A DNA stretch of 35,948 nt. It comes from Polaribacter sejongensis. GTDB taxonomy: Bacteria > Bacteroidota > Bacteroidia > Flavobacteriales > Flavobacteriaceae. Every line of letters begins with the position of its first letter. Position 1 is the first letter of the stretch. The position numbers and the translations under genes were made by a program. The notes below the pieces were generated by a model, which was given only the letters and a program-made list of their open reading frames with translations, was not told the DNA's origin and did not search any database. Below are positions 4,272 through 29,323 of this stretch, in pieces. The stretch lies in the NCBI GenBank assembly GCA_949545755.1, contig CATITK010000085.1, positions 1 through 35,948 on the forward strand, written 5' to 3'.

Positions 4272-4767
4272 ATTTAAAATTTAATAATCCAGTTCTTGCT
4301 TTCCAGCCTTTTTGACCAAAAAGGGGTAAGTCTACTAAATCGCTTGTTACTAATTTTATAACATTCCCATTTTGATTTGATAAATCATTTAACTTACTAA
4401 GTAAATCTATTGGGATTTCTTTTTCTGTTCGTTTAATTTTGTTTTCAGATAACAGTTCTGAATCGATAAAACCATATGATGCTAAAGATTTCATTGCTGA
4501 AAGTTGATAGGGTTTCATTCGTTCAAAAATCTGTCTTTGATCAGGAATATCTTCATATGGATTTCTTTTTACTTTAAACACACTATTTTTCAATTTTCGT
4601 AAATCAGCAGGAAAAGAAATGTCTTGCACTAAATTTGGAAATGTTAAGTAAAAATCCCAAATACGGATTTTATCAAAATGTATTACTTCTTCTTTAGAAT
4701 AATTCATTAGTTGAAGCATTCTAAAAATACAATTATATAGGTCAAATGCAGGATGATAAACTATCAT
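4258..4767 (-). CDS. ABC-three-component system, middle component (probable)
   Basis: 169 aa with no signal or membrane segment. The N-terminus (MIVYHPAFDLYNCIFRMLQL) is followed by a helical, winged-helix-like segment: IRIWDFYLTFPNLV and then FERMKPYQLSAMKSLASYG. From memory this matches the family labelled ABC-three component middle component, which bridges ATPase and effector. I cannot confirm the exact subfamily number. It lies 4 bp after the membrane-anchored gene and overlaps the ATPase by 14 bp, so all three products should be made together and probably form one complex. No catalytic motif is seen. Confidence 0.65.
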   Translation of the reverse strand: MIVYHPAFDLYNCIFRMLQLMNYSKEEVIHFDKIRIWDFYLTFPNLVQDISFPADLRKLKNSVFKVKRNPYEDIPDQRQIFERMKPYQLSAMKSLASYGFIDSELLSENKIKRTEKEIPIDLLSKLNDLSNQNGNVIKLVTSDLVDLPLFGQKGWKARTGLLNFKYDPR

Positions 4768-4771
4768 AATT

Positions 4772-5443
4772 TCAATTCCATTTTAAGTGACAATTTCCAG
4801 TTAAAAAATGTAGCATACCATTTATGTCGTGAGCAGTAAAACCTAAATGATTTTCATCAAGTTCAGTCATTAATGGGTTTATAAGTCTTTCTGTAATCAT
4901 AGAATTTATCAGTTTCTCATCTTCACCTTTTTCTAATAAAGGATGTATTTCATTTTCAAAATAAGAGATTACCAAACCCAATAAGTGGATGTTAATTTTT
5001 TGAGCCGCTTCTGAAAATTGATATTTATATAATTTTCTATGGTATTTATCCTTTGCCTCAACTGCAAAATCAATAAAGCCTTGTCTTCTATTCGCATTTG
5101 ATAATTTTTCCTCTAAACCAATTACATCATCTTTTCTTTTGTTGTAGTAATAATCTAAATCGTCTATGAATTCAGTAAGTTTAGAATCACTTTCTTGTTC
5201 AGTTTTAAATTTTTCTAAAAGAACACTCATATATGAAGACTTTGAACCAGTAAATACATATTTACTTGATTTATCAATATTGCCACCTGCAACATCACCA
5301 CCAATTTTACTATCTTTTATATTTACTTGTCCAGGATTTTTGTTTCTGTCCTTTTTTACAATAAATTTAAAAATAAGACCTGCTCCAACTATTGCTGCAA
5401 TTATTCCTATAATTATTTGTGTTGTGTTGTCTCCTAAATCCAT
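4772..5443 (-). CDS. ABC-three-component system, membrane-anchored effector-type protein
   Basis: 223 aa. A single transmembrane helix (about 8-28, IIIGIIAAIVGAGLIFKFIV) is followed by basic residues, giving an N-out, C-in topology. Then comes a short beta-solenoid-like stretch NIKDSKIGGDVAGGNI (41-56), of the type found in effector subunits of conflict systems. The helical C-terminal region (70-223) ends in INGMLHFLTGNCHLKWN (207-223), which resembles the conserved end of the ABC-3C C-terminal domain that docks onto the middle component. No nuclease, protease or NAD-consuming motif is visible, so the membrane segment itself may be the effector. First gene of the operon; no convincing promoter box in the 45 bp between the flanking repeat and its ATG. 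Confidence 0.65.
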   Translation of the reverse strand: MDLGDNTTQIIIGIIAAIVGAGLIFKFIVKKDRNKNPGQVNIKDSKIGGDVAGGNIDKSSKYVFTGSKSSYMSVLLEKFKTEQESDSKLTEFIDDLDYYYNKRKDDVIGLEEKLSNANRRQGFIDFAVEAKDKYHRKLYKYQFSEAAQKINIHLLGLVISYFENEIHPLLEKGEDEKLINSMITERLINPLMTELDENHLGFTAHDINGMLHFLTGNCHLKWN

Positions 5444-5808: not shown

Positions 5809-7077
5809 TTATTTTGAACCGCTTAAAAATTTAGGCTTAATGACTAACATTGCCCATGCCCAATTCTGAGTTCCTGACGCCAATGCTTTTGTTGTCCCTT
5901 TTAATTCATAAAGACCATCGCTTGCAAACATTTGAGAGTATCCAAGAACCAAAGCATATCCTTTAAACTTCTTCTTAAAAACCAAATCAATCTCAGTTCC
6001 TAAAGATTTTTCTCCGCTTGGTAATGCTTCTGCTCCTCTAAAATTTAATGCTTTGATCATTAAACTTGACGTTTTATCTATGGTAAATTTTGCACTTAAA
6101 TGAAGATCAACCAATCCAATAGAATTTGCATGATTACCCACATAAAAATAATCCATAAAACCATTAAATTTATGATTTGTACCATACAATGGGAAAAAGG
6201 CAGCACTGTCCTCTTTTTTTCCGCTAATACTTTCAATTCCGATACCTAATCCTACTTTGGGTGCTACTTTATACGTTGCATCTAGGCTGAACAAAGAAGC
6301 GCCTTTTACAGCGACATCTCCCTGGCGTTTTCCTGTCTGTAAATAAGCATTTGCAGCAAGTCCAAAACTTCCATTCTTATAGTTTAAATGGGTTCCAATG
6401 GTTTGTAAATTACTGATACCATCTGCATCTCCAGCAAGGTCAAATTCTTGAAATCCATTATTCATCAACAATAAACTACCGGATAATTTTTCCCATTTTT
6501 GCTTCGCATGCAACATTTGCATTGTTTTATAAGAGAAAAATCCTTTGGTGTTATAAGCCGTTCCAGAAGAAATAAAACCTGTTGGATGGGAATAATCTTG
6601 GTTATATGCCAATGCAAGATCTAAAGCAAACTTATTTTTTTTGTATTTGATCAAAGCGGCATCATGATTACGTCCTTGTTGTGCCCAATCCAATCCTCCT
6701 AAGATTCTCTGGTCATCATAAGAAAGTACTTGACGTCCAATTTTTGTAGACCAACCAGAACCTAATTGTAATTCTGCCCAAGCCTGAAAAACGGCAAAAG
6801 AATTGTTTTCATCATAAGGTAAAATTTGTCTGTTCTCTCCCCAAACCAAAACATCTTGTAAACTGATGAATACCTTGTAAGCCTCGGTTTTAAAACCTGC
6901 TTTTAATCTTGCTCTTGTTGAAATTCCAAAACCAGCGTCTGCGCCGTCTGAAATTAAATTTCCAAATCCATGACGGTATTCGGATCTTGTTCTAAATTCT
7001 CCATCTAAAGTAAATTGTGCATTTGCAAATTGAAAACTTGCTAGCACTAGGGCTAAAATTAGGTGTTGTTTTTTCAT
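5809..7077 (-). CDS. Outer-membrane porin, alginate-export-like, probable nitrate porin
   Basis: 422 aa with a Sec signal peptide (residues 1-20, ending in FANA before QF). The mature protein reads as a 16-18-stranded barrel of the alginate_export family: FRTRSEYRHGF near the start, IGRQVLSYDDQRILGGLDWA (about 117-136) and QGRNHDAALIKY are typical of that family in Bacteroidota. It is the last gene of the importer operon, 36 bp after the second ABC ATPase, and is followed by a strong terminator. The context implies passage of nitrate or nitrite across the outer membrane rather than alginate. The substrate is inferred only from position. Confidence 0.8.
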   Translation of the reverse strand: MKKQHLILALVLASFQFANAQFTLDGEFRTRSEYRHGFGNLISDGADAGFGISTRARLKAGFKTEAYKVFISLQDVLVWGENRQILPYDENNSFAVFQAWAELQLGSGWSTKIGRQVLSYDDQRILGGLDWAQQGRNHDAALIKYKKNKFALDLALAYNQDYSHPTGFISSGTAYNTKGFFSYKTMQMLHAKQKWEKLSGSLLLMNNGFQEFDLAGDADGISNLQTIGTHLNYKNGSFGLAANAYLQTGKRQGDVAVKGASLFSLDATYKVAPKVGLGIGIESISGKKEDSAAFFPLYGTNHKFNGFMDYFYVGNHANSIGLVDLHLSAKFTIDKTSSLMIKALNFRGAEALPSGEKSLGTEIDLVFKKKFKGYALVLGYSQMFASDGLYELKGTTKALASGTQNWAWAMLVIKPKFLSGSK

Positions 7078-7113: not shown

Positions 7114-7944
7114 TTAATGTTCTAAAAAGTCTATTAAATGTTTTCTATACGTGTAATAATCGTCGTGCTCTAACACCGATTTTCGGGTTCTTGGTCTTTC
7201 AAAATTAATGTCTAAAATATCTCCAATTTTTGCCCTGGGCCCACTGGTCATCATAACCACTCTGTCTGCTAAAAAAATAGCTTCATCCACATCGTGTGTA
7301 ATCATCACTGCAGTAATTTTTTCTTTATTCCAGATTTCAATTAAGATATCTTGGAGTTCTCCTCTTGTTAAAGAATCTAACATCCCAAAAGGTTCATCTA
7401 ACAATAACACCTTTGGTTTTATGGCAAATGCTCTTGCAATACCAACTCTTTGTTGCATTCCTTGTGATAATTCACTTGCTTTTTTATGAAAAGAATCTTC
7501 CAAACCTACCTTTTGCAAATAGTATTTTGCAATCGTATTTCTTTGTGATTTTGTTGCATCAGGAAAAACTTGATTTACTCCTAACAATACATTTTGTAAG
7601 GAGGTCATCCAAGGCATTAAACTTGGGGATTGAAAAATAACACCTCTGTCGGGCCCTGGACCTCGTATGTGTTTTCCTAGTACAGAAATGTTCCCTCCAG
7701 AAATTGGATTTAATCCTGCAATCATCGAAAGCATCGTTGTTTTACCACAGCCTGAATGTCCAATAATCGTTACAAATTCTTCTTTTTTTATCTGAAGGTT
7801 TAAATCCTCTAAAACCACATAATCCCCTTTTGGAGTAGGATACACTTTTTTAAGATTTTTTAAATCTAGCATGACTTCGTTCGAAGGAAAAGGAGTACTT
7901 TTTGTAATAATTTTAGGTATTTTTTGTTCTATTATAGTACGCAT
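7114..7944 (-). CDS. Nitrate/nitrite-type ABC importer ATPase (NrtD-like, canonical)
   Basis: 276 aa, NrtD/SsuB/TauB class ATPase. Walker A GHSGCGKTT (62-70), Q-loop GVIFQSPSLMPW, signature LSQGM (159-163, with Gln in place of the first Gly), Walker B VLLLDEPFGMLD with E184 as base, and H-loop H217 in MITHDVDEA. It lacks the C-terminal solute-binding-like regulatory domain of cyanobacterial NrtC. The ATG shares one base with the TAA of the upstream ATPase gene. An N-terminal tail of about 24 residues precedes the core; an internal Met at 25 is an alternative start. It would pair with the upstream ATPase, supplying the complete Walker A/B and His of one ATP site. Confidence 0.85.
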   Translation of the reverse strand: MRTIIEQKIPKIITKSTPFPSNEVMLDLKNLKKVYPTPKGDYVVLEDLNLQIKKEEFVTIIGHSGCGKTTMLSMIAGLNPISGGNISVLGKHIRGPGPDRGVIFQSPSLMPWMTSLQNVLLGVNQVFPDATKSQRNTIAKYYLQKVGLEDSFHKKASELSQGMQQRVGIARAFAIKPKVLLLDEPFGMLDSLTRGELQDILIEIWNKEKITAVMITHDVDEAIFLADRVVMMTSGPRAKIGDILDINFERPRTRKSVLEHDDYYTYRKHLIDFLEH

Positions 7945-8801
7945 TAGTTTCCAAATTTAAACTGATTAACAAAATCTTTTGGAACTAAATCTGGCAATAT
8001 ATACGCTTCTTTAGCTTCCGTTTTTCGCTCGTTTCCGATATCCATCAAATACTCAATAATGGCGTTTCTTGTTTTCTTAAAATTCGCATTATCGTTCATT
8101 GCTGTTTTGTCTCTTGGACGCTCCAAATCAATTTTAAACTCTGGGCCTAAAGTTGCATTAGGTCCTGGCCTTAAAGGAATAATTCTATCTGCCATATAAA
8201 TTCCTTCATCAACATCATTGGTAATCAACAAAGCGGTTCTTTTGTCTTTTCCCCAAATATTTAAGATTTCATCTTGTAAATTTCCACGAGTTAAAGCATC
8301 TAAAGCTCCCAAAGGTTCATCCATAATGATCATTTCTGGCTTCATTGCCAAAGCTCTTGCTACTGCAACTCTTTGACGCATTCCTCCAGATAATTCTTTA
8401 GGTCTTTTGTGCATCGCTGGAGTTAAACTCACCATTTCTACATAGTCTGCAACGATTGTCTTTAATTCCTTTTTATTTTTCTCTGGAAAAGCTTCCTTCA
8501 CAGCCATAAGCACATTCTGTTCTACAGTCAACCAAGGCAATAATGAATAATTTTGAAAGATGACTCCACGCTCATGACTTGTGTCAACCACGGGCGCTCC
8601 TTTAAATAAAACGGCTCCGCTTGTTGGTGCTAACAAACCATTAATTAAGTTCACTAAAGTTGTTTTTCCACTTCCCGTAAAACCAACAATGGCAACAAAT
8701 TCTCCTTCCTCTATTTTCAAGTTGATATTCGATAAAACCTCCATTTCATTGGCTCCTTGTCCATAGGTTTTACAAATATTATTTAGTTCTAAATATGCCA
8801 T
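7944..8801 (-). CDS. Nitrate/nitrite-type ABC importer ATPase with degenerate H-loop
   Basis: 285 aa. Walker A GFTGSGKTT (40-48), signature LSGGMRQRV (137-145), Walker B MIIMDEPLGALD (E162). The switch histidine is replaced by Asn (N195 in LLITNDVDEG). The C-terminal 50 residues are short and charged, without the NrtC regulatory domain. The gene lies 81 bp after the permease and overlaps the next ATPase by one base (TAATG). With the partner's LSQGM signature, the composite site that uses this subunit's Walker motifs would be degenerate, as in asymmetric ABC transporters. The family is sure; the substrate is inferred from the locus. Confidence 0.85.
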   Translation of the reverse strand: MAYLELNNICKTYGQGANEMEVLSNINLKIEEGEFVAIVGFTGSGKTTLVNLINGLLAPTSGAVLFKGAPVVDTSHERGVIFQNYSLLPWLTVEQNVLMAVKEAFPEKNKKELKTIVADYVEMVSLTPAMHKRPKELSGGMRQRVAVARALAMKPEMIIMDEPLGALDALTRGNLQDEILNIWGKDKRTALLITNDVDEGIYMADRIIPLRPGPNATLGPEFKIDLERPRDKTAMNDNANFKKTRNAIIEYLMDIGNERKTEAKEAYILPDLVPKDFVNQFKFGN

Positions 8802-8882: not shown

Positions 8883-9989
8883 TTATATCGCATCTGTTTT
8901 ATCAAAAGAGACCCAATTTTGAATCGTTAACATCAATCTGTCTAATAAGAATCCTATAATTCCAATAACAAACATGGCCACAATAATTTTTGCATTCGAA
9001 TCATTTGCACCATTCTGAAATTCTTCCCAAACAAACAATCCTAAACCAGGACTCTGGGCCAAAAGTTCAATCGCAATTAAAACCATCCAAGCTACCGATA
9101 ATGTAATCTTTAATCCCGTAAAAATTAGAGGTAAAGAGGATGGTAAAACAACTTTAAATATCTTTTGAAAAGTACCTAATTTCAAAACTTTTGCAACATT
9201 TATATAATCTTTATCTACCGTTGAAACACCCATGGCAGTATTTACCAAAGTTGCCCACATAGAACAAAAACCAACACTTATAAAAGAAATGGTAAATGAA
9301 CTATCTTCATTTGAATCTATTAATAACGTTTTTACAATCATAAAAACTAATAAATACCAAACTACGGGTGATACTGGTTTAAAAATTTGAATGAACCAAT
9401 TAAAAGCACTTTTTAAAGTTGGACTCAGTCCAATGAAAATTCCAAGAGGAACTGCAATTAATAATGCCAATAAAAAACCTGCAAATACAGTTTGTAAACT
9501 TCTAAAAATTTGATCTACAAAAGAGGGCCTACCCGTATAGGTAATTGCCGCTTTTCCTGCTGCAATTCTTTTGGCATTTAAAACCGCTGTTTTTTCAATA
9601 AAAGCGGCTTTGTCTGAACTAATAATATGATGATCTCTTAACAACGATTTGTACGATTCCCAGACCTGAGCAGGAGACGGCAACGTGTTTGGTTGACAAG
9701 TAGATTCACCAGAAGCAATACATACTTTTAAAGCATCTGCAGCAGTTTGACCTTGATCTTTTAGCGCTTTTTCTATTTTAAATTTGGCTTCTATATTGTA
9801 CAAAGATTTGGCACCTAAATGCCACAAACCAATGAACAAAACAATGGAAGCAAGTGGCACTATTGTCTTACGTAAAAGGACTTTAAAATCTTCTTTTTCT
9901 AACTTACCCGTAAAAAGGTTTTTTAAGGTAGAAAAGAATCCTAATCCTAAAAAATTAGTGACTTTCCCAAATGTTATACTTGCTTTCAT
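8883..9989 (-). CDS. nrtB: Nitrate/nitrite-type ABC importer permease (NrtB-like)
   Basis: 368 aa binding-protein-dependent permease. The first membrane helix is at about 43-60, and the transport core follows from about 160 (SLQTVFAGFLLALLIAVPLG). The EAA-like loop is the YINVAKVLKLGTFQKIFKVV region, followed by LPSSLPLIFTGLK. It is about 90 residues longer than typical NrtB/SsuC. The extra sequence lies between helix 1 and the core (64-101, with C90 and C98, and 119-152), on the periplasmic side. Operon position is between the lipoprotein and the two ATPases. The first segment before the helix (1-40) is basic and cytosolic. Confidence 0.85.
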   Translation of the reverse strand: MKASITFGKVTNFLGLGFFSTLKNLFTGKLEKEDFKVLLRKTIVPLASIVLFIGLWHLGAKSLYNIEAKFKIEKALKDQGQTAADALKVCIASGESTCQPNTLPSPAQVWESYKSLLRDHHIISSDKAAFIEKTAVLNAKRIAAGKAAITYTGRPSFVDQIFRSLQTVFAGFLLALLIAVPLGIFIGLSPTLKSAFNWFIQIFKPVSPVVWYLLVFMIVKTLLIDSNEDSSFTISFISVGFCSMWATLVNTAMGVSTVDKDYINVAKVLKLGTFQKIFKVVLPSSLPLIFTGLKITLSVAWMVLIAIELLAQSPGLGLFVWEEFQNGANDSNAKIIVAMFVIGIIGFLLDRLMLTIQNWVSFDKTDAI

Positions 9990-10091: not shown

Positions 10092-11489
10092 TTATTTTTT
10101 ATCCTTATTTCCAATTGAAAAGCTATTGATGTAGCCTAAAGGATCTTTTGCATCGAATTTTGTACCATCAATAAAATCTGCTGTAGCTGGCTTATAACCA
10201 TCTGTTGTTGGAATGTCTTTTGCAGGAATGTTTCCTTCTTCAACTAAAAGAGCGGCTGCTTTTTTCCAAATATCTGGTCTGTAAATTTCTTTAATTGTGT
10301 TTGCATACCAGGCTGCTGATTTTGCGTCAGGAATTTGTCCCCATCTTCTCATTTGAGTTAAAAACCAAATTCCATCAGAATAAAAAGGATATGTTGCATT
10401 GTATTTATAAAAAACATTAAAATCTGGCATGTCTCGTTTGTCTCCTTTTTCAAACTCAAAAGTACCTGTCATAGAATTTGCTAAAACAGCTTCTGGTGCA
10501 CCAACATATTGAGACATGGATAAGATTTTTACCGCTTCTGTTCTGTTTTCGGGTTGGTCTAACCATTTTCCTGCTCTAATTAATGCTTTGGTCACTGCAA
10601 TTGCTGTGTTTGGATTTTCATCCACAAATTTTTGCGTCATTACAAATACTTTCTCTGGATTGTTTTTCCAGATATCATAATTGGTTACTACAGGAACTCC
10701 AATTCCTTTAAACACTGCTTGTTGATTCCAAGGCTCACCCACACAGTATCCAAAAATAGTACCCGCTTCTAAAGTGGCTGGCATTTGTGGTGGAGGTGTT
10801 ACAGATAATAAAACCTCAGCATCTATTTGACCTTGTACATTTTCTTTGGTATACATTCCTGGATGAATCCCTGCTGCTGCTAACCAATATCTAATTTCAT
10901 AATTGTGTGTGGATACTGGAAAAACCATCCCCATTTTAAATGCTTTACCTGAGTTTTTATATTGAGTAATTACGGGCTTTAAAGCGTTTGCTGTAATAGG
11001 ATGCACCGGTTTCCCATCTTTATCTTTCGGTACATTTGGCTTCATTTTAGACCAAACATCATTAGAAACTGTAATTGCATTTCCGTTTAAATCCATAGAA
11101 AAAGCAGTTACTAATTTTGCTTGACGACCAAAACCTGCACCTGCAGCGATGGGTTGACCTGCCAACATATGGGAGCCATCTAATTGCCCATCAATAACTC
11201 TATCCAATACATTTTTCCAGTTAGATTGTGCTTCTACAGAAACAAATAAGCCTTCTTCTTCAAAGAAACCTTTTTCTTTCGCAATTGCTAAAGGTGCCAT
11301 ATCCGTTAATTTAATAAACCCAAAAGTTAATTGTGGTTTTTCAATCGCTAACATTTTTGTTTTTGATGCTGTTGCCTCCTCAATTGTTGTCTCAACAATC
11401 GGAGTCTTTTTAGTTTCTTTACCTCCACAAGCAAAAAGTAACATTGCTACAGGTAAAATGTAAATTGATTTTTTAAATAGAGTTTTCAT
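10092..11489 (-). CDS. nrtA: Nitrate/nitrite-type ABC importer binding lipoprotein (NrtA-like)
   Basis: 465 aa. A lipoprotein signal peptide ends in LLFAC, with lipidated C21. The mature part is of the NrtA/CmpA family: [20 protein letters not shown] at the N-terminus, then [27 protein letters not shown] and [11 protein letters not shown]. In this family it captures the anion in the periplasm and delivers it to the permease. Nitrate rather than bicarbonate or cyanate is inferred from the reductase genes next door. It is the first gene of the importer operon, with 102 bp to the permease. A palindrome shared with the nirB and narB promoters lies 22-37 bp upstream of the start. Confidence 0.88.
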
Positions 11490-11510: not shown

Positions 11511-11526
11511 TACGTATTAATACTTA
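11511..11526 (-). promoter_or_regulatory. Nitrate-locus palindromic operator, nrtA copy
   Basis: TACGTATTAATACTTA on the plus strand, containing the perfect 10-mer GTATTAATAC. It differs from the narB copy at two positions and from the nirB copy at two. It lies 22-37 bp upstream of the nrtA ATG. The octamer next to it on the nrtA side (TACATCTT, 11505-11512) is only a weak -7 box. Confidence 0.65.
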
Positions 11527-11534: not shown

Positions 11535-11542
11535 CAAATATA
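11535..11542 (-). promoter_or_regulatory. Candidate nrtA promoter, -7 box TATATTTG
   Basis: A perfect TAnnTTTG on the minus strand, 46 bp before the nrtA ATG. If this is the real promoter, the palindrome would lie just downstream, at the transcription start, in a repressor-like position. No good -33 element is seen. Confidence 0.4.
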
Positions 11543-11717
11543 TACCTAGATGTACTTTTAATGTATGCGGTACAACATGTTAAAACCTCTTTTTAAAACA
11601 TATTAAAATCTGCTATAAAACAGCTTATAAGTCTAATTTACTTATAACCAATGAAATGAAAAATAAAAAATATACGTACCCTTTCTACGTAGTTACTCTT
11701 TTACTCCTTTTATCCCT

Positions 11718-11919: not shown

Positions 11920-12690
11920 CTAAAAATCTAAAAAATAATTATGCTCACTAATTTCGTTCTTTAAATTCTGAACATTCGTAATTCCTATTTTTTTTCCTTG
12001 TGCTGTAATTAACTTTTCTTTTTTAAGTGTCGAAAAAATTCGAATCACCTGCTCTTCTGTGGTTCCTGCATAGTCTGCATATTCTTTTCTACTTAAAGAC
12101 AAATTAAGAAACCCTCTTAAATTGCCAAATTTTCTATAGATATATAACAACGTATCAATAACTCGTTCCCGAACTGTCATCTGAGAAATGGACTTTACTT
12201 TGGATTCACTTCTATTCAATTCATTTGCGTAAAACAACATCATGCTGTAGGCAAATTTTGGGTTTTCCAACAAAGCTTCCTGTAAATCGTCTTTTGAAAA
12301 ATAACATAAAACCACATCTTCTAAAGCAATTGCGCCAATAGAATAATATTCTTCTGTACCAAAACCACGATGCCCAATAATCTCTCCTTCTTTGGCAAAA
12401 CGCACAATTTGTTGCCGACCATTAATACCCGTTCTAAAAACTTTTACAGTTCCTCTTAGAATAAAAAATAACCCATTTACAGGAGCTCCTTCAATAATAA
12501 ATTGTTGCCTTTTTTTACATTTTAAAGTTTTCTTATGTGCTACAAAATCCACATTGGAAAAATTTTCTAAATTCTGATTTATCAAACAACTAGAGTTCAC
12601 GCAAGAAATACAAGAAGCATCCTGAAAAGCTTTTGTTGAATTTTTAAATTCGATATTTTTGTGTAAAGTCAATGGTCTTTTATTGGTCAT
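11920..12690 (-). CDS. FNR-like Crp/Fnr family regulator with candidate [4Fe-4S] cysteines
   Basis: 256 aa. An N-terminal cysteine cluster C27-x2-C30-x4-C35 is followed by the cyclic-nucleotide-binding-type barrel (about 50-140). C129 in VVLCYF aligns with C122 of E. coli FNR, and C58 is additional. The dimer helix (about 145-180) and winged helix-turn-helix follow, with LSRKEYADYAGTTEEQVIR (199-217). E213 and R217 sit where FNR and CRP have their Glu and Arg base contacts, while FNR's Ser is Ile here. The family and cysteine layout suggest an oxygen or NO sensor. It is the last gene of the narB operon, 10 bp after the rubredoxin fusion gene. It is a candidate regulator of the three nitrate promoters. 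Confidence 0.85.
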   Translation of the reverse strand: MTNKRPLTLHKNIEFKNSTKAFQDASCISCVNSSCLINQNLENFSNVDFVAHKKTLKCKKRQQFIIEGAPVNGLFFILRGTVKVFRTGINGRQQIVRFAKEGEIIGHRGFGTEEYYSIGAIALEDVVLCYFSKDDLQEALLENPKFAYSMMLFYANELNRSESKVKSISQMTVRERVIDTLLYIYRKFGNLRGFLNLSLSRKEYADYAGTTEEQVIRIFSTLKKEKLITAQGKKIGITNVQNLKNEISEHNYFLDF

Positions 12691-12700: not shown

Positions 12701-14134
12701 TTATTTTACAAATACTATCTTTTTGAAATTGGTTTTTGGAGCCTCACAAAGTGAACATTTATAACTTTCCGGGAGGTCTTTAAAAAATGTTTTTGTTCTA
12801 ATTTTTTGAGTAACGTCTCCATAAGATTCATCGTAAATAGTGAAACAATCTGCGCATTGATATACTTCCAATTCAATCGCTTCTTTTGGTGCTTCAACTT
12901 CTTTTTCAATTTCCTTTTCACTCCCTAATTGATCAAAATATAGCTGACTTAACTCCATCAATAAACCAGGCAATTCAACCTTATCCACGTCTTGAACGTG
13001 TAGAATATACTTTCTTGTATTTGGATCAAAATTTTTAGCATATAAGAGATTATACGTATCTCTTATTTGAAAATTTCCAAGCATTGTTGGTTGCTTGTTT
13101 TTTTCAATAACGATGGAGGTAAAATAATAACAAGCTTTGGTATATGTTGTAATTCCAAAAGTTAAACCATAGGTACTAATGTCATTTTGATCGAAGTTAG
13201 AAACTAAGTATTTCTTAAGATTTAGGGCGTCTTTATTTGCTACAGGGATATGCCAATTCAACTCCAGCATTGAGTGTCTTACGTTAATCCCTCTTTTTCC
13301 TAAAAATTTTTCCCAAACCAATTTAGATTCCCTTGGAATTCCTTTTACAATAAATGATTTCCAAGGTGTAATTGAAATTTTACCAATCTTGTTTTCTGAA
13401 CACAATTCACACATGTCTTTCAAAAAAGAGATATCATATTTGTTATTTCTCCAATAGAGACCCAACCAATATTTATCCATCCCAATTTTATTCATCCCTT
13501 CAAAATAAGGAAAAGGATAAAAAGGAACTTCTAACGGCTTATCTACAGTTCTATTATTTGTATCAACTCCATCACTTACCAACTCAAAAATAGTTTCTAT
13601 TGTTTCAGGTTCTTCGATAAGGATATTTTCAATGGCAGCTTCAATTTTACCTAAATCCCAACTATAAATTAATGCTGGATACATTTGTGTGCTTTTCCAA
13701 TCTGGAAGTCTCACATATAAATACCAATAATCTTCGTGTTCTGAAGCTATAAAATTGATATTTCCTGTAAACAAAGGGACTAAACGTTGTTTTGGGTCTG
13801 TAATGTTTATTTTTAATTTAGATTTAGAATGAAATTGCTCTAAAAGATACAAATACCGATCTCCGGTTAACCAAGAAGTGCTTGGAAAAATATCCGCACA
13901 AACATAAGACGAGACAATGTTTTCAATCCTTGTTTCATTTGCTGCAACAATTTTTAATTTTTCAAACTGTTCAAGCTCTTCCTGATTTACTTCTTTTGGT
14001 AATAAAATATCTTGTCTAGATCCAAAAGAGATGGTTTTTAAACCTAAGCTTTCTACCGATTCGCAAATGTATCTTAGCTCTCCAGGAGATAATACTCCTC
14101 CTTTTATTATCAATCTATTTAACTGCTTGCTCAT
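12701..14134 (-). CDS. Nitrite/sulfite reductase-like protein without siroheme cysteines, fused to rubredoxin
   Basis: 477 aa. Residues 1-410 resemble the ferredoxin-like half-domains of siroheme reductases (LIIKGGVLSPGELRYICESV at the start; INITDPKQRLVPLFTGNINF in the middle). The C-x5-C ... C-x3-C motif that holds siroheme and [4Fe-4S] is absent: the matching region reads SSYVCADIFPSTSWLTGDRY. An acidic linker precedes a rubredoxin domain (425-477) with C427-x2-C430 and C460-x2-C463. The ATG overlaps the TGA of the nitrate reductase gene (ATGA), so coupled synthesis is likely. I infer an electron carrier or docking subunit for the nitrate reductase, not a nitrite reductase. The family is common in Bacteroidota but uncharacterised as far as I know. 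Confidence 0.75.
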   Translation of the reverse strand: MSKQLNRLIIKGGVLSPGELRYICESVESLGLKTISFGSRQDILLPKEVNQEELEQFEKLKIVAANETRIENIVSSYVCADIFPSTSWLTGDRYLYLLEQFHSKSKLKINITDPKQRLVPLFTGNINFIASEHEDYWYLYVRLPDWKSTQMYPALIYSWDLGKIEAAIENILIEEPETIETIFELVSDGVDTNNRTVDKPLEVPFYPFPYFEGMNKIGMDKYWLGLYWRNNKYDISFLKDMCELCSENKIGKISITPWKSFIVKGIPRESKLVWEKFLGKRGINVRHSMLELNWHIPVANKDALNLKKYLVSNFDQNDISTYGLTFGITTYTKACYYFTSIVIEKNKQPTMLGNFQIRDTYNLLYAKNFDPNTRKYILHVQDVDKVELPGLLMELSQLYFDQLGSEKEIEKEVEAPKEAIELEVYQCADCFTIYDESYGDVTQKIRTKTFFKDLPESYKCSLCEAPKTNFKKIVFVK

Positions 14135-17100
14135 ACTCCTACTTTTGCGTTGTTCAATATCTCTCTCACCTCTGTTTTACAACTACCGCAACCTAAACCA
14201 GCTCCTGTTTTGTTGCATAATTCTGTGAAATTTGTACACCCTTTTGCGATTGCTTCTTCAATATTTCCTGCACCAACCTGGCTGCAAGAACAAACTAATT
14301 TACCTAAAACAGGCGTATCGTTTGAAGCGCCTCTTAACAAGGTATCCCGTTTGTCAGACATTTCAATTTTGCTTTCAATCAAAGTTTTGAATTCTGCAAA
14401 CTCATTTTTATCACCGACCAAAACAGCACCAATTAACAAGTCATCTTTTACAATACATTTCTTATAATACCGCTTAGAGAGGTCTGTAAATATAATTTCC
14501 TCATAACTTGGGTCATTTTCAGGAACCGAAATTTCGCCAATACTACAAAGGTTTAAATCGTTAAATTTTAAAATATTCATTAATACAGAACCTTTGTAAG
14601 CTTCACTTATATCGCCTGCGATAAAATTGGCTAAAATACCTGCTTGTTCTTCTGCCGCAGATGTAATTCCGAATAACTTATTGTTAAATTCTGCAATTTC
14701 TCCAATAGCAAAAATATCTGGATGTGAAGATTGTAAATGCTGATTTACTTTCACTCCGCGTCCGCAAACAATGCCGTTATTTTTAGCAATTTCTATATTT
14801 GGACGTGTACCAATTGCGTAAACAATTGCATTGGCAGTTATGTATTTTCCACTCTTTAGATTAATTGTTAATTCGCCCGTATCTTCATCGTCAAAAACAG
14901 TACTTACTTCGTTATCAAAATAAATTTGAATGCCTCTTTCTTGTACATTCAAAGACAATAATTTACTAGATATTTTATCTAATTGACGCTCCATTAATCG
15001 AGAGGCTCTTTGCACAATTGTAATCTTTACACTCTTATGCTTCATTGCTGCTGCCAATTCCAATCCTAACAAACCTCCTCCAACAATTACAACATGTTGC
15101 TCTTCTGGAGGTAAACCCGTATCGTCAAGGTATTTTTTAAATTGATCCGCATCAACTTTGTTGCGCATGGTAAATCTGCCTCGCAAATCTATTTGTACAT
15201 CTTTTGGAACAAAAGGTCTACTTCCCGTTGCTAAAATTAACCGATCAAACAGATGTGTTTTTCCTTTAGAGTCTGTAACTACTTTTGTCTCTTTATCAAT
15301 CTTCTCAATAGTCGTTTCAGGATGAATTTTAATGTTTAAATTGTTCAATTCAACATTTTTTATCTTCAATAATTGTTCCCAACTTAATTCTTCCGTAATA
15401 TATTCTGGTAATAAAACTCGATTATAAAATAAGTTTGATTCTTTTGAAAATACATGAATTTCGTCTACCTCATTATAATCTCTATAATTTTGTAAAAACC
15501 GAAAAGCAGCAGCTCCTGCTCCCGCAATTATTATCTTTTCTTTTGGCTTTTTATATTTAGAAACAGACACTGAAGTATACTTAAAATCAGGTTCTTTAGA
15601 TATAGGGTCTATATGTGTGTTGGTTAAATTATTCGCTCTGTTTAAATTACTTTGCAGTACTTTTCCCCAATGCATGGGCAAGAAAACGACACCTTCTTTT
15701 ATAGTATCTGTAACTTTTGCGCGAACTCTAACAACCCCATTTTGACTTTTTATTTCGGTAATATCTCCATCTTTAATATTATTTAAATACGCATCAATAG
15801 GGTTAATTTCTAAAACAGGCTTTGGATAGTGTGTTTTTAATCTGGAGACTTTTCCTGTTTTAGTCATGGTGTGCCACTGATCTCTAATTCGCCCAGTAGT
15901 TAAAATTAACGGAAATTCTTCGTTCGTTTTAACGGATGGATTCTCTATACTAGAGGGAATATTAAAAATTGCTTTTTGAGAAGGCGTATAAAACTTTTTA
16001 TCTTCAAAAAGACGGGGCGTCCCTTTATGACGGTATTCATTTACGGGCCACTGAAAAGTTCCTTCACTTTTTAAACGATCATAATTTAAAAAAGAAACAT
16101 CAATATTTGTGCCTTTTGTCATTAAGGCATATTCATCGTATATTTCTTCTGTACCATTATAATTAAAACCTCTAAAACCCATTCTTCGTGCAAAATCACA
16201 GAAAATTTCTACATCGGGTCTTGCTTCTCCTGGAGCTTCAATTTCTTTTGGTAAATAGGAAATTCTACGTTCAGAATTTGTCATCGTTCCTTCTTTCTCT
16301 AACCACGCAGCAGCGGGCAAAACCAAATCTGCATAGGCTAAAGTATCTGACTTATGAGAAATTTCTTGCACTACCACAAATTTAGAATTTGCCATTGCTT
16401 TTTCAATTCTGTGCGAATTTGGCATACTCACTAACGGATTTGTACAAGCAATCCAAACTGCTTTTAGTTTTCCACTTTCTAAAGCATCAAACATTTCTGT
16501 GGCTGTTAATCCTGGTTTTGGTGATATTTTATCAACCCCCCAGAATTGTGCAACTTCTCGTCTATGTTGTTCGTTTTGTAAATCTTTATGAACCGCTAAT
16601 AAATTTGCCATTCCTCCAACTTCTCTACCTCCCATTGCATTTGGCTGCCCTGTTAAAGAAAAAGGACCCGCTCCTGGCTTACCAACCTGACCAGTAATCA
16701 ATGACAAATTTAAGAGGGATGTGTTTTTATCCGTTCCAATTACACTTTGATTTAAACCCATCGCCCACATACTGATGAACCCTTCAGAAAGACCAATCAT
16801 TGCTGCCGCCTTTTGAATCTCTTTTACAGGAACTCCGCAAATTTTGGAAGCTTCTTTTAAGGAAGTTTCAAAAATCACTTTTCTATAAGCATCAAAACCT
16901 TCTGTGTGTTTTTTAATAAAATCTTCATCTATTAAACCACTTTTATACAAACACCTACCAATGGCGTTATACAAAACAACATCTGTTCCTGGCGTTAATT
17001 GTAAGTGTAAATCTGCAAAACTTGCTGAATCTGTTTTACGCGGATCTATCACAATAACTTTTACATTGGGATTTTCTTCTTTGTGTTTTTCAATTCGTCT

Positions 17101-17652
17101 AAATAAAATAGGATGACACCAAGCAGGGTTTGCGCCTGTTATTAAAAAACAATCCGCTAATTCTATATCTGCATATGAAATTGGTACACTATCTTCTCCA
17201 AATGTTTTTTTGTAGCCAACCACAGCTGAACTCATACATAGACGCGAATTAGTATCTATATTATTGGTTCCCAAAAAACCCTTTGTCAGCTTATTTGCGA
17301 TATAGTATTCTTCCGTTAAACTTTGTCCGGAAACATAAAAAGCAACAGCATCTGGACCATGTTTTTTTATAATTGATTTAAAAACATTGGCAGCTCTATC
17401 TAAAGCGGTATCCCAACTTACTCGCTCACGAGGATGAGAACGACTCCATCTCATCTCTGGATATAAAATTCGATCGGACGTATCATTGGCAACATAATGT
17501 AAATTCATCCCTTTGGAACACAACATTCCTTTATTCACAGGGTGGTCTTTATCACCTGCAACAAAAACCTTGTTATTGATGTCTTTTTTTACAATAATAC
17601 CACAACCAACTCCACAATAAGAACAGGTTGTTTTAATTTCATTTTTCATCAT
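14131..17652 (-). CDS. Assimilatory nitrate reductase fused to FAD reductase and BFD [2Fe-2S] domain
   Basis: 1173 aa, no Tat signal, cytosolic. Residues 1-690 are a Nas/Nap-type Mo-bis-MGD subunit: [4Fe-4S] ligands C10, C13, C17 and C45, and Mo ligand C139 in SRLCMSSAV. Residues 700-1090 are a NirB/NasB-type FAD/NAD(P) reductase (IIIAGAGAAAFRFLQNY, and VVIVGGGLLGLELAAAM for the nicotinamide nucleotide). Residues 1119-1165 are a BFD-like [2Fe-2S] domain (C1121, C1123, C1155, C1158). The chain could pass electrons from NAD(P)H through FAD and Fe-S to Mo without a separate reductase. The start has two adjacent Met codons; either fits. First gene of its operon, with a strong palindrome 150 bp upstream. 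Names in use for relatives are nasA and narB. Confidence 0.92.
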   Translation of the reverse strand: MMKNEIKTTCSYCGVGCGIIVKKDINNKVFVAGDKDHPVNKGMLCSKGMNLHYVANDTSDRILYPEMRWSRSHPRERVSWDTALDRAANVFKSIIKKHGPDAVAFYVSGQSLTEEYYIANKLTKGFLGTNNIDTNSRLCMSSAVVGYKKTFGEDSVPISYADIELADCFLITGANPAWCHPILFRRIEKHKEENPNVKVIVIDPRKTDSASFADLHLQLTPGTDVVLYNAIGRCLYKSGLIDEDFIKKHTEGFDAYRKVIFETSLKEASKICGVPVKEIQKAAAMIGLSEGFISMWAMGLNQSVIGTDKNTSLLNLSLITGQVGKPGAGPFSLTGQPNAMGGREVGGMANLLAVHKDLQNEQHRREVAQFWGVDKISPKPGLTATEMFDALESGKLKAVWIACTNPLVSMPNSHRIEKAMANSKFVVVQEISHKSDTLAYADLVLPAAAWLEKEGTMTNSERRISYLPKEIEAPGEARPDVEIFCDFARRMGFRGFNYNGTEEIYDEYALMTKGTNIDVSFLNYDRLKSEGTFQWPVNEYRHKGTPRLFEDKKFYTPSQKAIFNIPSSIENPSVKTNEEFPLILTTGRIRDQWHTMTKTGKVSRLKTHYPKPVLEINPIDAYLNNIKDGDITEIKSQNGVVRVRAKVTDTIKEGVVFLPMHWGKVLQSNLNRANNLTNTHIDPISKEPDFKYTSVSVSKYKKPKEKIIIAGAGAAAFRFLQNYRDYNEVDEIHVFSKESNLFYNRVLLPEYITEELSWEQLLKIKNVELNNLNIKIHPETTIEKIDKETKVVTDSKGKTHLFDRLILATGSRPFVPKDVQIDLRGRFTMRNKVDADQFKKYLDDTGLPPEEQHVVIVGGGLLGLELAAAMKHKSVKITIVQRASRLMERQLDKISSKLLSLNVQERGIQIYFDNEVSTVFDDEDTGELTINLKSGKYITANAIVYAIGTRPNIEIAKNNGIVCGRGVKVNQHLQSSHPDIFAIGEIAEFNNKLFGITSAAEEQAGILANFIAGDISEAYKGSVLMNILKFNDLNLCSIGEISVPENDPSYEEIIFTDLSKRYYKKCIVKDDLLIGAVLVGDKNEFAEFKTLIESKIEMSDKRDTLLRGASNDTPVLGKLVCSCSQVGAGNIEEAIAKGCTNFTELCNKTGAGLGCGSCKTEVREILNNAKVGV

Positions 17653-17795: not shown

Positions 17796-17803
17796 CAAAA
17801 GTA
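17796..17803 (-). promoter_or_regulatory. Nitrate reductase operon promoter, -7 box TACTTTTG
   Basis: A perfect TAnnTTTG on the minus strand, about 145 bp before the nitrate reductase ATG. Its TA is also the outer TA of the palindromic operator. Confidence 0.6.
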
Positions 17804-17822
17804 AGTATAAATACTTACTTTT
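17797..17822. promoter_or_regulatory. Nitrate-locus palindromic operator, nitrate reductase copy
   Basis: A perfect inverted repeat with 12-bp arms (AAAAGTAAGTAT and ATACTTACTTTT) around a 2-bp centre. The 16-bp core TAAGTATAAATACTTA (17802-17817) is shared with the nirB and nrtA upstream regions. A separate GTACGTAC palindrome lies at 17835-17842. Confidence 0.75.
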
Positions 17823-17947: not shown

Positions 17948-18607
17948 CTATATCAGTTGGTATTCTTTCGCTTTATTACTCAGTTCCATTAAATTTTTAG
18001 CCTCTAATTTCTTCATTAAATTAAAACGATGCACCTCTGCAGTGCGCTTGCTAATTTGTAATTCTTCGGCAATATCTTTATTGTTCTTTAACTCTAAAAC
18101 TAAGGTTAATATTTGCTTTTCTCTTTTGGTTAATTTAAAAGGAAGTTCTTGAAACTCCTTTTGAGGTGTTCCTTTTTTAGTTGTAGCTCCATCTACAAAA
18201 TTGTTCATTATAATAGAAGAAACATCTCCTGTAAAATACCTACCACCAGAAGCAACTTTACTTATTGCTTTCAAAAATTCTTTCTTACTTGCTCCTTTCA
18301 ACAAATAACCATCAGCTCCTGCTTGTATCGATTTTAAAACATATTCTTCAGAATCGTGCATCGAAAGCACCAATGTTCTTACATCTGTGTACTGTTTATT
18401 AATTTCAGTAACCACTTCAATTCCATTCATTTCTGGCATGCGAATATCAACAATAAGGATATCAGGTTTCTTTTTCGAAATGACCTCTAAAGCTTCTTTT
18501 CCGTTGGATGCTTCATCTATAACAGTAATTCCTGACTGGTCTTCTAAAAGTGCTTTAATGCCATCTCTTACCAAAACATGGTCGTCTGCTAAAACTATAT
18601 TAATCAT
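17948..18607 (-). CDS. NarL/FixJ-family response regulator
   Basis: 219 aa. The receiver domain (1-120) has acidic pocket D8-D9, phosphoacceptor D54 in LIVDIRMPEMNG, and the Lys of the LLKGASKKEF segment. The LuxR-type helix-turn-helix (about 152-215) contains FKLTKREKQILTLVLE and ISKRTAEVHRFNLMKKLEAK. It is the last gene of the nirB unit, 54 bp after the sensor kinase gene, with which it surely forms a two-component pair. A TACTTTTG box and several TACTTA-like heptamers precede it, so it may also be transcribed alone and autoregulated. E. coli NarL binds TACYYMT, which these resemble. Confidence 0.9.
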   Translation of the reverse strand: MINIVLADDHVLVRDGIKALLEDQSGITVIDEASNGKEALEVISKKKPDILIVDIRMPEMNGIEVVTEINKQYTDVRTLVLSMHDSEEYVLKSIQAGADGYLLKGASKKEFLKAISKVASGGRYFTGDVSSIIMNNFVDGATTKKGTPQKEFQELPFKLTKREKQILTLVLELKNNKDIAEELQISKRTAEVHRFNLMKKLEAKNLMELSNKAKEYQLI

Positions 18608-18661: not shown

Positions 18662-20473
18662 TTAAATAGGGATATTTAATGTTACTCTTGTGCCTTTTCC
18701 AAGTTCAGAATTCAAGAACAATCGACCTTCAACAAACGTAATTCGTTCCTTCATAAAAGTCATGCCCATTCCTCCATCTCCATTCTTTACGTGCTTTACC
18801 TTTGAAGGTTCAAAACCTTGTCCATCGTCATCCACAACGATACTTAATATTTTTTCACTGTGAGAAACTGCCACCAAAATATGAGAAGATTCAGCATATT
18901 TAATAGCGTTATTTATTGCTTCTTGAACAATTCTATAAATATTAATTTCAACAAGGGAATCTAAACGCTGATTATAGTCTGTTTTATTTAGAAATAAGAT
19001 TTCTTTTCCCGTTAATCTTCCTAATTCTTGGGTTAGTTTTATCATTGCAGGAACCACTCCATGATCAGATAATTCTGGTGGAGTTAAATTAAAAGTGGCA
19101 GCTCTAACACCTTTTATAATATTTGTAGTTAAGTCCTTTAAATGTTCAATCTTAGCAGTTGTTTTCTGAATATCATTCATATTAATGCTTTCTAAATTGT
19201 ATTTTAATCCAGTTAACATCTGACCAATTCCATCATGCACATCCTTTGCAATTCTATTTTGTTCTTTTTCTTGGTTTTCTATAATCTTACTTGAAATTAT
19301 TTTTTGCTGACTCATTTTCTCCTCAAAACTCTCTTTGGTCAATCTTTCAATTTCTATTTGACCTGCTTTTTTAGCAGTAATTTCTGAGGCGATAATTAAC
19401 AATTCAGACTTATCTTCTGTGGGCCTATAGGGAACTATTGACATTTCTAACCAAATAGTTTCAGCGTCTTTTGTCGTTGCCTTAAGCTCGCCTTGCCATC
19501 CCGTTTTTTTATGTTTTGTAATTAAATCTTCAATTATGAACTGTTCGTTTTCATTATTTGATAAAATGTTCCAAAAGAACGTTTCTTTTTTAAATTTTGT
19601 GAATTTAAACAACCTTGAAAACTTATTTCCTATGTGAATTAAATTTCCGTTTGGAGAAATTCTTGCAAACAATAATGTTTCATCAATTGCTTGACTTAAA
19701 GCACGCAACTCTCTAATCGATTTTTCTTTAACAACACTCAACTCATCTGCATTAAAAGCCATCTTTTTAGCTTTCTTTTCTGCCGACAACAATTCTGAAA
19801 GTATCATTTTTATAGATTTTGCAGTAGGCAAAAAGATGAACACTAACTCCCCCAAAAGCAGCAACAATGTTAGTCCCATTAATAAGAACTCTAACTTTCT
19901 CAACCAAGCAACTTTCTCATTCGCTTCTAAATCATATTGATTCACAATTTCATCCATTATCAACAAAAAAGAACCTTCATTATTGGTTATTTTTTTGATT
20001 TCAGACACCAAGTAATCAATAGAAATTAAAGGATTTTTTTCTAGTTTTCGAAGGATTAATTTTGAAGCTTTCTGTATGGTATCAAAAACAGGATTAATCG
20101 CAGTAAACTTACTTTTTATTTGCACACTATTTTGTTTAGGAAGCCCCAAACTATCATTTCCTTTTTGAAGAGAGTTATGAGATAACTCCCATAGAAAAAG
20201 TGTTCTTTTTATATTATTTTTGAGAGAAATTCTATTTTTTTCATCCGAAGAAACTGAGAGGGAAACAATTTCTTTTGTTAGTTTCTGACTCAACATTCTT
20301 TGCCTACCAGCAATATTTATCACCGTAGAATCACTTTGTTGTTTGTCTAAATGATTGCGAACTAAAACCTGACTAATAATTACAGAAAAAGCAATGGTGC
20401 TTAAAGCAATAATATACAAACGACTTAATTTATCAAACGTTCTTTGGTCTAATGAATTGCCTTTTTTTGTCAT
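18662..20473 (-). CDS. NarX-like sensor histidine kinase with PilJ-type input domain
   Basis: 603 aa. Membrane helices at about 17-37 and 196-215 bracket a periplasmic helical domain. INIAGRQRMLSQKLTKE (52-68) resembles the PilJ-type input domain and the P-box of NarX/NarQ, where an Arg binds nitrate or nitrite. A cytosolic signalling helix, a PAS-like domain (about 260-365) and a HisKA_3 dimerisation helix with H413 in AKDVHDGIGQ follow. The HATPase domain has NAIKYAE, DDDGQGFEP and GGMGMTFMKERI. It lies 15 bp after the DUF4202 gene and 54 bp before the response regulator gene. A role in nitrate or nitrite sensing is inferred from the input domain plus the locus. Confidence 0.87.
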   Translation of the reverse strand: MTKKGNSLDQRTFDKLSRLYIIALSTIAFSVIISQVLVRNHLDKQQSDSTVINIAGRQRMLSQKLTKEIVSLSVSSDEKNRISLKNNIKRTLFLWELSHNSLQKGNDSLGLPKQNSVQIKSKFTAINPVFDTIQKASKLILRKLEKNPLISIDYLVSEIKKITNNEGSFLLIMDEIVNQYDLEANEKVAWLRKLEFLLMGLTLLLLLGELVFIFLPTAKSIKMILSELLSAEKKAKKMAFNADELSVVKEKSIRELRALSQAIDETLLFARISPNGNLIHIGNKFSRLFKFTKFKKETFFWNILSNNENEQFIIEDLITKHKKTGWQGELKATTKDAETIWLEMSIVPYRPTEDKSELLIIASEITAKKAGQIEIERLTKESFEEKMSQQKIISSKIIENQEKEQNRIAKDVHDGIGQMLTGLKYNLESINMNDIQKTTAKIEHLKDLTTNIIKGVRAATFNLTPPELSDHGVVPAMIKLTQELGRLTGKEILFLNKTDYNQRLDSLVEINIYRIVQEAINNAIKYAESSHILVAVSHSEKILSIVVDDDGQGFEPSKVKHVKNGDGGMGMTFMKERITFVEGRLFLNSELGKGTRVTLNIPI

Positions 20474-20488: not shown

Positions 20489-21073
20489 TTATGAAATGGC
20501 TTGCTTCACCAGCGCTAAACTTGCTTCAGAAAAAGGAATTAACAAAGCTGCAGCGTGTCCTTTTTCAGACATTTTAACCCATGTTTTTTTAAGAATATCA
20601 ATTACTTTTTCATCTGTATGTTTTGCTGCAAATGCGACAAGATAATACTCTAAAAAAACCAAACAGATAGTGTCTTCTAATATTTGAGACTCTTCATTTT
20701 TTTTGATGCCTTTTTTTAAAATAATTTTCTGAACTCTCTCAATAAATTGAGTTTCAAAACCAACTTCTTGCAAAATTTCTCCCGTAATCTCAGCATGCAT
20801 CATTTTTAATTTTTGACGCCATTTTAAATACCCAACTCTGTCCATTGGATACTCGTTTCGCTGAATTTTCCAACGACAAATATGCTGTGCTCTTGCAGCA
20901 ATCTTAAGGGCATCAGAGGCACTTGGATTAAAAGCTATCAACCTTCTTGTCATCCTTTGAGAGTACAATAGTTCTTTTGGATAGGCTAAGTCGAGCACTT
21001 GATACGTATCTGCATCTTCAGCATTTTTCTTATCAATAATTGCAATGGCAGTTTCAAATTTTGTTGGCTTCAT
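20489..21073 (-). CDS. DUF4202 family protein
   Basis: 194 aa, soluble, no signal. Family hallmarks are ID(K)KNAED near 14-20, PKELLYSQRMT (32-42), ARAQHICRWKIQRNEYPMDR (60-79), a conserved HAE (93-95) and LEDTICLVFLE (132-142). The spaced H64, H93, E133-D134 and E142 look like an HD-type metal-binding set, so a hydrolase-like fold is possible but unproven. Genes of this family tend to lie near nitrite or sulfite reduction genes. Here it is between nirD and the nitrate sensor kinase, with 63 bp to nirD, so it probably serves nitrite assimilation or siroheme use. Function unknown. Confidence 0.8.
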   Translation of the reverse strand: MKPTKFETAIAIIDKKNAEDADTYQVLDLAYPKELLYSQRMTRRLIAFNPSASDALKIAARAQHICRWKIQRNEYPMDRVGYLKWRQKLKMMHAEITGEILQEVGFETQFIERVQKIILKKGIKKNEESQILEDTICLVFLEYYLVAFAAKHTDEKVIDILKKTWVKMSEKGHAAALLIPFSEASLALVKQAIS

Positions 21074-21136: not shown

Positions 21137-21514
21137 TTATTCTAAAAAGCCAATATACACATTTCCGTCAATAATTTTAACAGGATAGGTGGCAATTTTT
21201 AAATCTTCGCCAGCTAAATTAGTACCATCTTCTAAAGAAAAATTCTTTTTGTGCAATGGGCAAGCAACTTTTGGAATTCCATCTTTATCACCAATCATTC
21301 CTAAAGATAATACCATTTCCATTTTATGTGGACATAGGTTTTGAGTAGCATACCATTTACCTGTTCTCACAAAGTTATACACAGCGATTTGCTTGGTTTT
21401 GTATTTTATACAAGCACCCGTATTTTCAGGAAAATCTTCTGTTTTACCAACTTTAAACCATTGATTTACATTTTCTTCTGAAACTGATTTGTATTTTTCT
21501 AATATTTCTTGCAT
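21137..21514 (-). CDS. nirD: Nitrite reductase small subunit (Rieske-type)
   Basis: 125 aa from the ATG at 21514 (MQEILEKYKSVSEENVNQWF). A longer reading from GTG at 21595 adds 27 residues unlike the family, and the AT-rich leader before 21514 suits a start. The Rieske [2Fe-2S] motif is intact: C61-P-H63 and C85-P-L-H88, with the usual FSLEDG after it. It is the partner of NirB in NADH-dependent reduction of nitrite to ammonium in the cytosol. Some NirD proteins lack the cluster ligands; this one keeps all four. It follows nirB by about 107 bp to the chosen start. Confidence 0.88.
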   Translation of the reverse strand: MQEILEKYKSVSEENVNQWFKVGKTEDFPENTGACIKYKTKQIAVYNFVRTGKWYATQNLCPHKMEMVLSLGMIGDKDGIPKVACPLHKKNFSLEDGTNLAGEDLKIATYPVKIIDGNVYIGFLE

Positions 21515-21621
21515 GGTTTTAAATTTTAATGGTTGATAAAAATAGGTTTCTTTAGGAAGACTTATGAAGCCCTGTAAAACCTGAATAGTAGCCACTTATT
21601 TATTGTTTGCTGGAAACTAAT

Positions 21622-24135: not shown

Positions 24136-24153
24136 AACTACGTATTTTAAAAA

Positions 24154-29197: not shown

Positions 29198-29323
29198 ACT
29201 TTTGAAGGTTTATTTGTTTGTGCGCTGAGTCGTTTCAACTTCAAACCAAATAGATAGACAAAAAATATCAATTATTAAATAATGCTTATAGCCAAAAAGC
29301 TAAAAGCCAATAGCATAAATAGA

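Follow-up and report, generated by a model that had tools for sequence, protein, structure and literature searches.

The window analysed here, a stretch of 35,948 nucleotides from the 2.11 Mb draft genome of Polaribacter sejongensis, carries an assimilatory nitrate cluster on its minus strand. In the order of that strand, it begins with nirB and nirD, coding for the siroheme nitrite reductase (21137-24156), a DUF4202 gene (20489-21073), narHK, a histidine kinase of the nitrate-sensing type with a PilJ sensor and a PAS domain (18662-20473), and narRR, a LuxR/NarL-type response regulator (17948-18607), the last two assigned from their domain matches and from the group in PMC8199190. Next come a fusion protein of nitrate reductase, NirB-like flavin reductase and BFD domain (14131-17652; nearest NCBIfam models Fdh-alpha and NasC, both below cut-off), a nas-operon protein joining a NIR_SIR half domain to a rubredoxin (12701-14134, from domain matches), and a CRP/FNR-family regulator gene (11920-12690). 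The cluster continues with nrtA, the binding protein of a nitrate/nitrite ABC importer (10092-11489; NMT1_2), the nrtB permease (8883-9989; BPD_transp_1), two ATPases, nrtC (7944-8801, named from its operon position and its own sequence) and nrtD (7114-7944; TIGR01184 ntrCD, above cut-off), and an outer-membrane porin (5809-7077; Alginate_exp). The regulator gene thus lies, as the initial annotation had placed it, inside the assimilatory nitrate cluster, with the genes for the assimilatory nitrate reductase on one side and nrtABCD on the other. The position of the DUF4202 gene, between nirD and the nitrate-sensor kinase, is also seen in several other nas clusters. Elsewhere in the window are iron-sulfur assembly genes (sufB, a sufC-like ABC ATPase and a sufD-like gene; 27752-31453) and, near the porin gene, a CTD9 protein of the ABC-three-component type with an AAA_23-like protein just below cut-off (2361-5443), which are possibly a defence system.

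The regulator starts at an ATG codon and is 256 residues long, with cysteines C27, C30 and C35 in its N-terminal part, C58 in the first beta strand and C129 in a core strand. Among the best 80 of 287 relatives, the closest named ones are Polaribacter proteins (identity up to 83%). Two Pfam domains above cut-off, PF00027 cNMP_binding (64.6 bits) and PF13545 HTH_Crp_2 (50.2 bits), place it in the CRP/FNR superfamily. Concerning the curated NCBIfam models, Fnr (NF008365) scores best, yet below its cut-off (75.4 vs. 228 bits); the cAMP receptor CRP (NF008732; 65.4 vs. 266 bits) and NtcA (TIGR03697; 43.9 vs. 244.95 bits) are below theirs too. The AlphaFold model (pLDDT 78; residues 1-24 under 50) matches P. 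gingivalis 2gau (Z 23.9) and the cAMP-binding GlxR (Z 23.4) above holo-FNR 5e44 (Z 21.2, rmsd 3.3 over 224 residues), so that the fold alone does not point to FNR. The recognition helix, T-E-E-Q-V-I-R, retains the Glu and Arg of FNR and has Ile where FNR has Ser, as described in the initial annotation.

That annotation had also likened C27, C30, C35 and C129 to the [4Fe-4S] ligands of E. coli FNR, C20, C23, C29 and C122. The observation is confirmed: the four cysteines are at the claimed positions, and a phmmer search against solved structures paired C129 with the cysteine in the core of FNR from A. fischeri. A fifth cysteine, C58, had gone unmentioned. Orthologues were compared in an alignment of 107 distinct proteins, including the window's own (108 rows when the window is counted as an extra row); since the 80 named loci are those ranking highest among 287, the cysteine counts lean towards close relatives. 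The N-terminal spacing, one residue under that of FNR as had been stated, is CX2CX4C in 106 of 108 rows (window included). Cysteine is retained in 105 of the 107 orthologues at position 27, in 106 at positions 30 and 35, in 103 at position 58 and in 95 at position 129, so C58 is as conserved as the other four. Read in the order 27/30/35/58/129, the patterns are CCCCC (90), CCCCH (8), CCCCY (3), CCCYC (2) and, once each, CCCLC, CCCIC, FCCCY and IYSCC. Exceptions to the conservation are the orthologue of genome G113, which lacks all three N-terminal cysteines, and that of P. aquimarinus, which lacks C27. As a whole, the proposed set withstood the comparison of orthologues by which it was to be judged; it is not invariant, as C129 is missing in 12 of the 107 proteins.

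These twelve share a further feature. Position 102 is Cys in all of them (12/12) and Gly in 96 of the 96 other rows; His38 is found in ten of the twelve vs. one of 96 elsewhere, and Lys78 and Gln113 differ too. In the tree the twelve proteins form one clade (support 100/99, with a bootstrap that had not settled), which makes the C129/C102 swap one event and not twelve. Within the clade, C102 is invariant, with either His or Tyr at residue 129.

The same pairing of cysteines was found outside the orthologues. In 27 paralogues drawn from the window's own bacterial family, the C129 column holds Cys in 14 of the 14 proteins with an N-terminal CxxC vs. two of the 13 without (Fisher 6e-6, relatedness ignored); the CxxC was judged by eye from the alignment rows, and the 20 distant paralogues were hand-picked. 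Together with the CX2CX4C of 106 of 108 rows, this pairing indicates that the cysteine pattern is more than chance. The set appears to behave as a unit, with three N-terminal cysteines and a core cysteine at the FNR position (moved to 102 in one clade), which supports an FNR-like iron-sulfur or metal site, and a cluster is most likely how these cysteines are to be read. The cysteines might instead bind zinc or form a thiol/disulfide switch, and the regulator would then activate nrtA in response to redox state or metal. We regard this as unlikely, even if CX2CX4C plus further cysteines could bind zinc, five cysteines rather than four are conserved, and an O2-labile cluster would often be absent in aerobic hosts, as these largely are. 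Against it, the set occupies the FNR ligand positions, including the C129 column, and the CxxC with C129 recurs across the CRP paralogues of the family. Moreover, the replacement of C129 by C102, residue 129 having become His or Tyr, would be easier to explain for a ligand than for one half of a disulfide.

The distribution of the regulator was then compared with that of its neighbours. Among 149 genomes of the family, 23 hold an orthologue (identity of 53% or more) and 24 hold nrtA, with both present in 23, while the rubredoxin-NIR protein of the nas operon is found in 31 (one weak match not counted), including all 23 regulator genomes. The regulator is therefore missing from one of 24 nrtA genomes vs. 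eight of 31 rubredoxin-NIR genomes; in the family sample it tracks the nitrate importer more closely than the nas operon, and nasC/rubredoxin-NIR was dropped as its main partner in favour of nrtA. In 296 genomes of the order the link is looser: 18 hold the regulator, 11 hold nrtA and nine hold both, nine of the 18 regulator genomes lacking nrtA (eight of these from one genus) and two of the 11 nrtA genomes lacking the regulator. Within the best 80 of 287 loci, those that are named, nrtA lies downstream of the regulator, on the same strand and within 6 kb, in 67.

Activators of the CRP and FNR type occupy class II promoters at -41.5. The nrtA promoter of the window has an ATG-N8-CAT palindrome, ATGTTGTACCGCAT (11565-11578, minus strand), separated by 22 bp from TATATTTG (11535-11542, minus strand), a match to the sigmaA box TAnnTTTG. 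As this box spans -12 to -5 in F. psychrophilum (PMC9723704), the start of nrtA is predicted at 11530 and the palindrome is centred at -41.5, a class II CRP/FNR-type dyad insofar as the box position of F. psychrophilum can be transferred; on the promoter comparison, it is the proposed activator site of the regulator. Directly upstream is a conserved block, AAAAAGAGGTTT (11583-11594, minus strand), and 45 bp upstream of the main site a distal (A/C)TG-N8-CA(G/T) palindrome, CTGTTTTATAGCAG (11610-11623, minus strand), was seen, though not counted; it is possible that it is a second site or a terminator hairpin.

The spacing is strikingly constant. With spacings of 18 to 26 bp allowed, ATG-N8-CAT followed at exactly 22 bp by TATATTTG was found in 69 of 84 nrtA regions (some genomes being counted twice). 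These 84 regions gave 76 distinct promoters, with CAT at -37 to -35 in 75 and ATG at -48 to -46 in 62. When spacings from 10 to 40 bp were scanned, operator-bearing sites occurred only at 22 (75 matches, again with some genomes counted twice). The stricter pattern AAAAAG-N10-ATG-N8-CAT-N22-TATATTTG was found in 18 of the 149 genomes, once in each; every copy lies upstream of nrtA, at a distance within 150 bp, and every one of these genomes has the regulator. The reversed control was found in none of the 149.

Considering all genomes with nrtA, the site is present in 24 of 30 with the regulator (23 from the family sample plus seven more from the order sample) and in none of three without it (Fisher 0.015, relatedness ignored), a small control consisting of G143, G412 and G400, the last from a distant family. 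The 24 comprise the 18 with the strict pattern, G019 with an ATGAGTGGCATCAT-N22-TACATTTG match, and G397, G421, G218, G162 and G348. The full site is absent from the other six (G002, G075, G113, G127, G262 and G285), whose whole loci were rescanned; the right half-site is kept in G075 and in G113, the latter being the genome whose regulator has lost its N-terminal cysteines. In G162, from a different family of the order, two tandem orthologues lie just upstream of nrtA (contig 43, 15638-17211; L161 and L172), one of them with Tyr replacing C58, and the nrtA promoter retains ATG-N8-CAT at the same spacing.

The initial annotation had predicted a half-site other than TTGAT, and the promoters point the same way, to ATG-N8-CAT, if this is indeed the site that the protein reads. 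Judged by the contacts that the FNR helix makes with its bases, the T-G core of ATG-N8-CAT and the Glu and Arg of the helix would fit the CRP/FNR family, and an A where TTGAT starts with T would fit the change from Ser to Ile. A nitrate leader RNA before nrtA was also considered and set aside: when the window, L045 and L049 were searched with Rfam at gathering thresholds, the sole match was a Flavo-1 RNA, in L045, and a DNA element is preferred over a leader RNA because the -7 box comes downstream of the conserved block. The Flavo-1 RNA (RF01705; L045, 13179-13277) is located between nrtB and nrtC and was seen in one genome.

The site is not confined to nrtA. In 1.78 Mb of loci, 13 of 15 further N22 sites (12 loci, two of them from a single genome) precede a porin-like gene, recognised by its first residues, and in other genomes the porin's own promoter has the same -41.5 site. 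One site with a spacing of 23 is followed by a gene that we take to be moeA-like. As for the related box ATGA-N6-TCAT, placed 21-23 bp before TAnnTTTG, 151 matches vs. 13 in the reversed control were found in 22 genomes with the regulator (22 of the 23, G127 being left out), and 157 vs. nine in 22 hand-picked genomes without it, a strong enrichment over the 44 genomes (308 vs. 22). A box at about -41.5 is present in all 22 genomes with the regulator and in 21 of the 22 that lack it; being about equally common in both, it was dropped as a marker of the regulator. Many of these genomes have a close FNR-like paralogue with CxxC, C129 and the same E..IR helix, and ATGA-N6-TCAT is probably the box of this commoner protein.

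Such a paralogue, with its shared helix and its box at about -41.5 with or without the regulator, might itself read the nrtA and porin sites while the window's regulator acts elsewhere. This is distinctly unlikely for nrtA and porin taken together: A is found at -45 in three of the 76 nrtA sites and the full ATGA-N6-TCAT in just one of 76, and none of the three genomes that have nrtA but not the regulator has the nrtA site. For the porin, where seven of 13 distinct promoters have ATGA-N6-TCAT, the paralogue is a serious candidate, and it could engage in cross-talk with the nrtA site.

If the regulator does hold a cluster, C58 bears on where that cluster would sit. This cysteine stays in all 12 proteins without C129, and no orthologue without both C58 and C129 was found among the 107. 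Such retention, with Cys in 103 of 107, is what would be expected if C27, C30, C35 and C58 held the cluster in an N-terminal four-cysteine site unlike that of FNR, C129 or C102 being structural. We consider this very unlikely, given that four proteins have lost C58 and kept C129, that 2gau has Cys at the aligned position (in an alignment covering just query residues 56-244), and that the N-terminal CxxC of the paralogues is tracked by the C129 column and not by C58, whose column is Cys in just one of 27.

A second palindrome, TAAGTA-N4-TACTTA, marks three promoters of the cluster, all on the minus strand: nrtA, as TAAGTATTAATACGTA (11511-11526, at +5 to +20 from the predicted start), nasC, where it abuts the -7 box TACTTTTG upstream of the gene (17802-17817), and nirB, where it abuts the -7 box TAATTTTG (24160-24175). 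Its centre is at about -18.5 at nasC and nirB, and the three positions look repressor-like. In the 2.11 Mb genome, TANGTA-N4-TACNTA has three perfect copies, all in the cluster, and its reversed control gave 10 per strand. Consensus sites of NarL and of CRP are known for comparison. The palindrome also occurs in the nas loci of all five regulator-less genomes fetched (G001, G024, G121, G129 and G143, of eight such genomes), each retaining a response regulator, and at nrtA of G412, another genome without the regulator. That the regulator binds these operators instead, as a repressor of the whole cluster, is hardly probable despite the three perfect sites, all within the cluster, and the FNR-like 5-4-5 spacing of AAGTA-N4-TACTT, since the palindrome persists where the regulator is absent and another factor must bind it.

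The binder is probably to be sought in the neighbouring nitrate-responsive pair narHK/narRR. Kinase and response regulator fit a group of Bacteroidetes in which a nitrate sensor with PAS has been described (PMC8199190), and represent a partner system rather than the finding itself. Upstream of nasC, a conserved TATTCAGAATAAT block followed by CTTGTTTGGTG was also observed in L033, L057, L053 and others; these elements are partly present in regulator-less genomes too (L065, L054 and L067).

In comparison with known systems, the regulator resembles E. coli and A. fischeri FNR in its fold (5e44, Z 21.2), in having a core cysteine besides three N-terminal ones, in the Glu and Arg of its helix and in its class II position. 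It differs from FNR by CX2CX4C in place of CX2CX5C, the extra C58, an E-x2-IR helix with Ile for the Ser of E-x2-SR, the presumed site ATG-N8-CAT instead of TTGAT-N4-ATCAA, and its link to assimilatory nitrate import. On account of the helix, the site and the curated score, we do not class it as an Fnr orthologue, though it would work like FNR. Cyanobacterial NtcA is likewise a CRP-family regulator of nitrogen assimilation, and is not known to have such a cysteine set. It differs by sensing 2-oxoglutarate (PMC12937710) and by the low score of our regulator with the NtcA model.

Paracoccus FnrP, which carries its [4Fe-4S] on Cys14, 17, 25 and 113 (PMC4771820), has the same three N-terminal cysteines plus one in the core; unlike our regulator, it has a CX2CX7C spacing and respiratory targets, and it shows that the N-terminal spacing varies among FNR orthologues. 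In B. subtilis, the [4Fe-4S] NO sensor NsrR binds the promoter of the nitrite reductase gene nasD in an NO-sensitive manner (PMC4432287), and is likewise an iron-sulfur regulator on a nas promoter, although it belongs to the Rrf2 family (PMC10783083) and not to CRP/FNR. To call an oxygen- or NO-sensitive factor unexpected at such a locus, as the initial annotation did, was therefore too strong. Other CRP/FNR homologues of Flavobacteriales are predicted to be MalR-like sensors of carbon supply (PMC8510549). No description of the present regulator was recognised among the open-licence PMC papers searched.

The conserved cysteines, the C129/C102 swap, the co-occurrence with nrtA and the site at its exact spacing all come from comparison of sequences, and from them we infer the cluster, the pairing of protein and site, activation and the signal. 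The earlier interpretation is in this sense partly supported: the conserved set holds and the promoters favour a non-TTGAT half-site, while a cluster is the likely reading, through which O2 or NO might be sensed. We think it somewhat probable that the protein is an FNR-like, cysteine-cluster activator dedicated to nitrate import by way of ATG-N8-CAT at nrtA. The three N-terminal cysteines and the core cysteine (C129, or C102 in one clade) would most likely hold a [4Fe-4S] cluster, and the cluster-loaded dimer would bind ATG-N8-CAT at -41.5 of the nrtA promoter and act as a class II activator of nrtABCD and the porin. Upon loss of the cluster, through O2, NO or a shortage of iron or iron-sulfur, import would fall, and nitrate would be taken up only as long as the iron-sulfur-rich reductases can be kept functional. 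TAAGTA-N4-TACTTA at nrtA, nasC and nirB would be the target of another factor, probably narHK/narRR.

Iron-sulfur sufficiency as the natural signal is an attractive guess, to which we give a little less than an even chance; in its favour, the reductases contain many clusters, and most of the hosts are aerobic marine flavobacteria. More tentatively still, a flavobacterial FNR-like family may use iron-sulfur status to gate nitrate import, in addition to a network of nitrate-responsive operators, one ligand having moved from 129 to 102 in one clade and C58 serving as a spare ligand.

The C129 to C102 change would be an example from nature in which a probable cluster cysteine has shifted its position. 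The locus also offers a testable regulon, nrtABCD plus the porin, and a promoter grammar for a group in which CRP/FNR regulation seems little charted (none is described in the open-licence papers found). If the proposed mechanism is true, nitrate uptake in marine flavobacteria is linked to the status of iron-sulfur, O2 or NO, and marine nitrate assimilation would be tied to iron supply.
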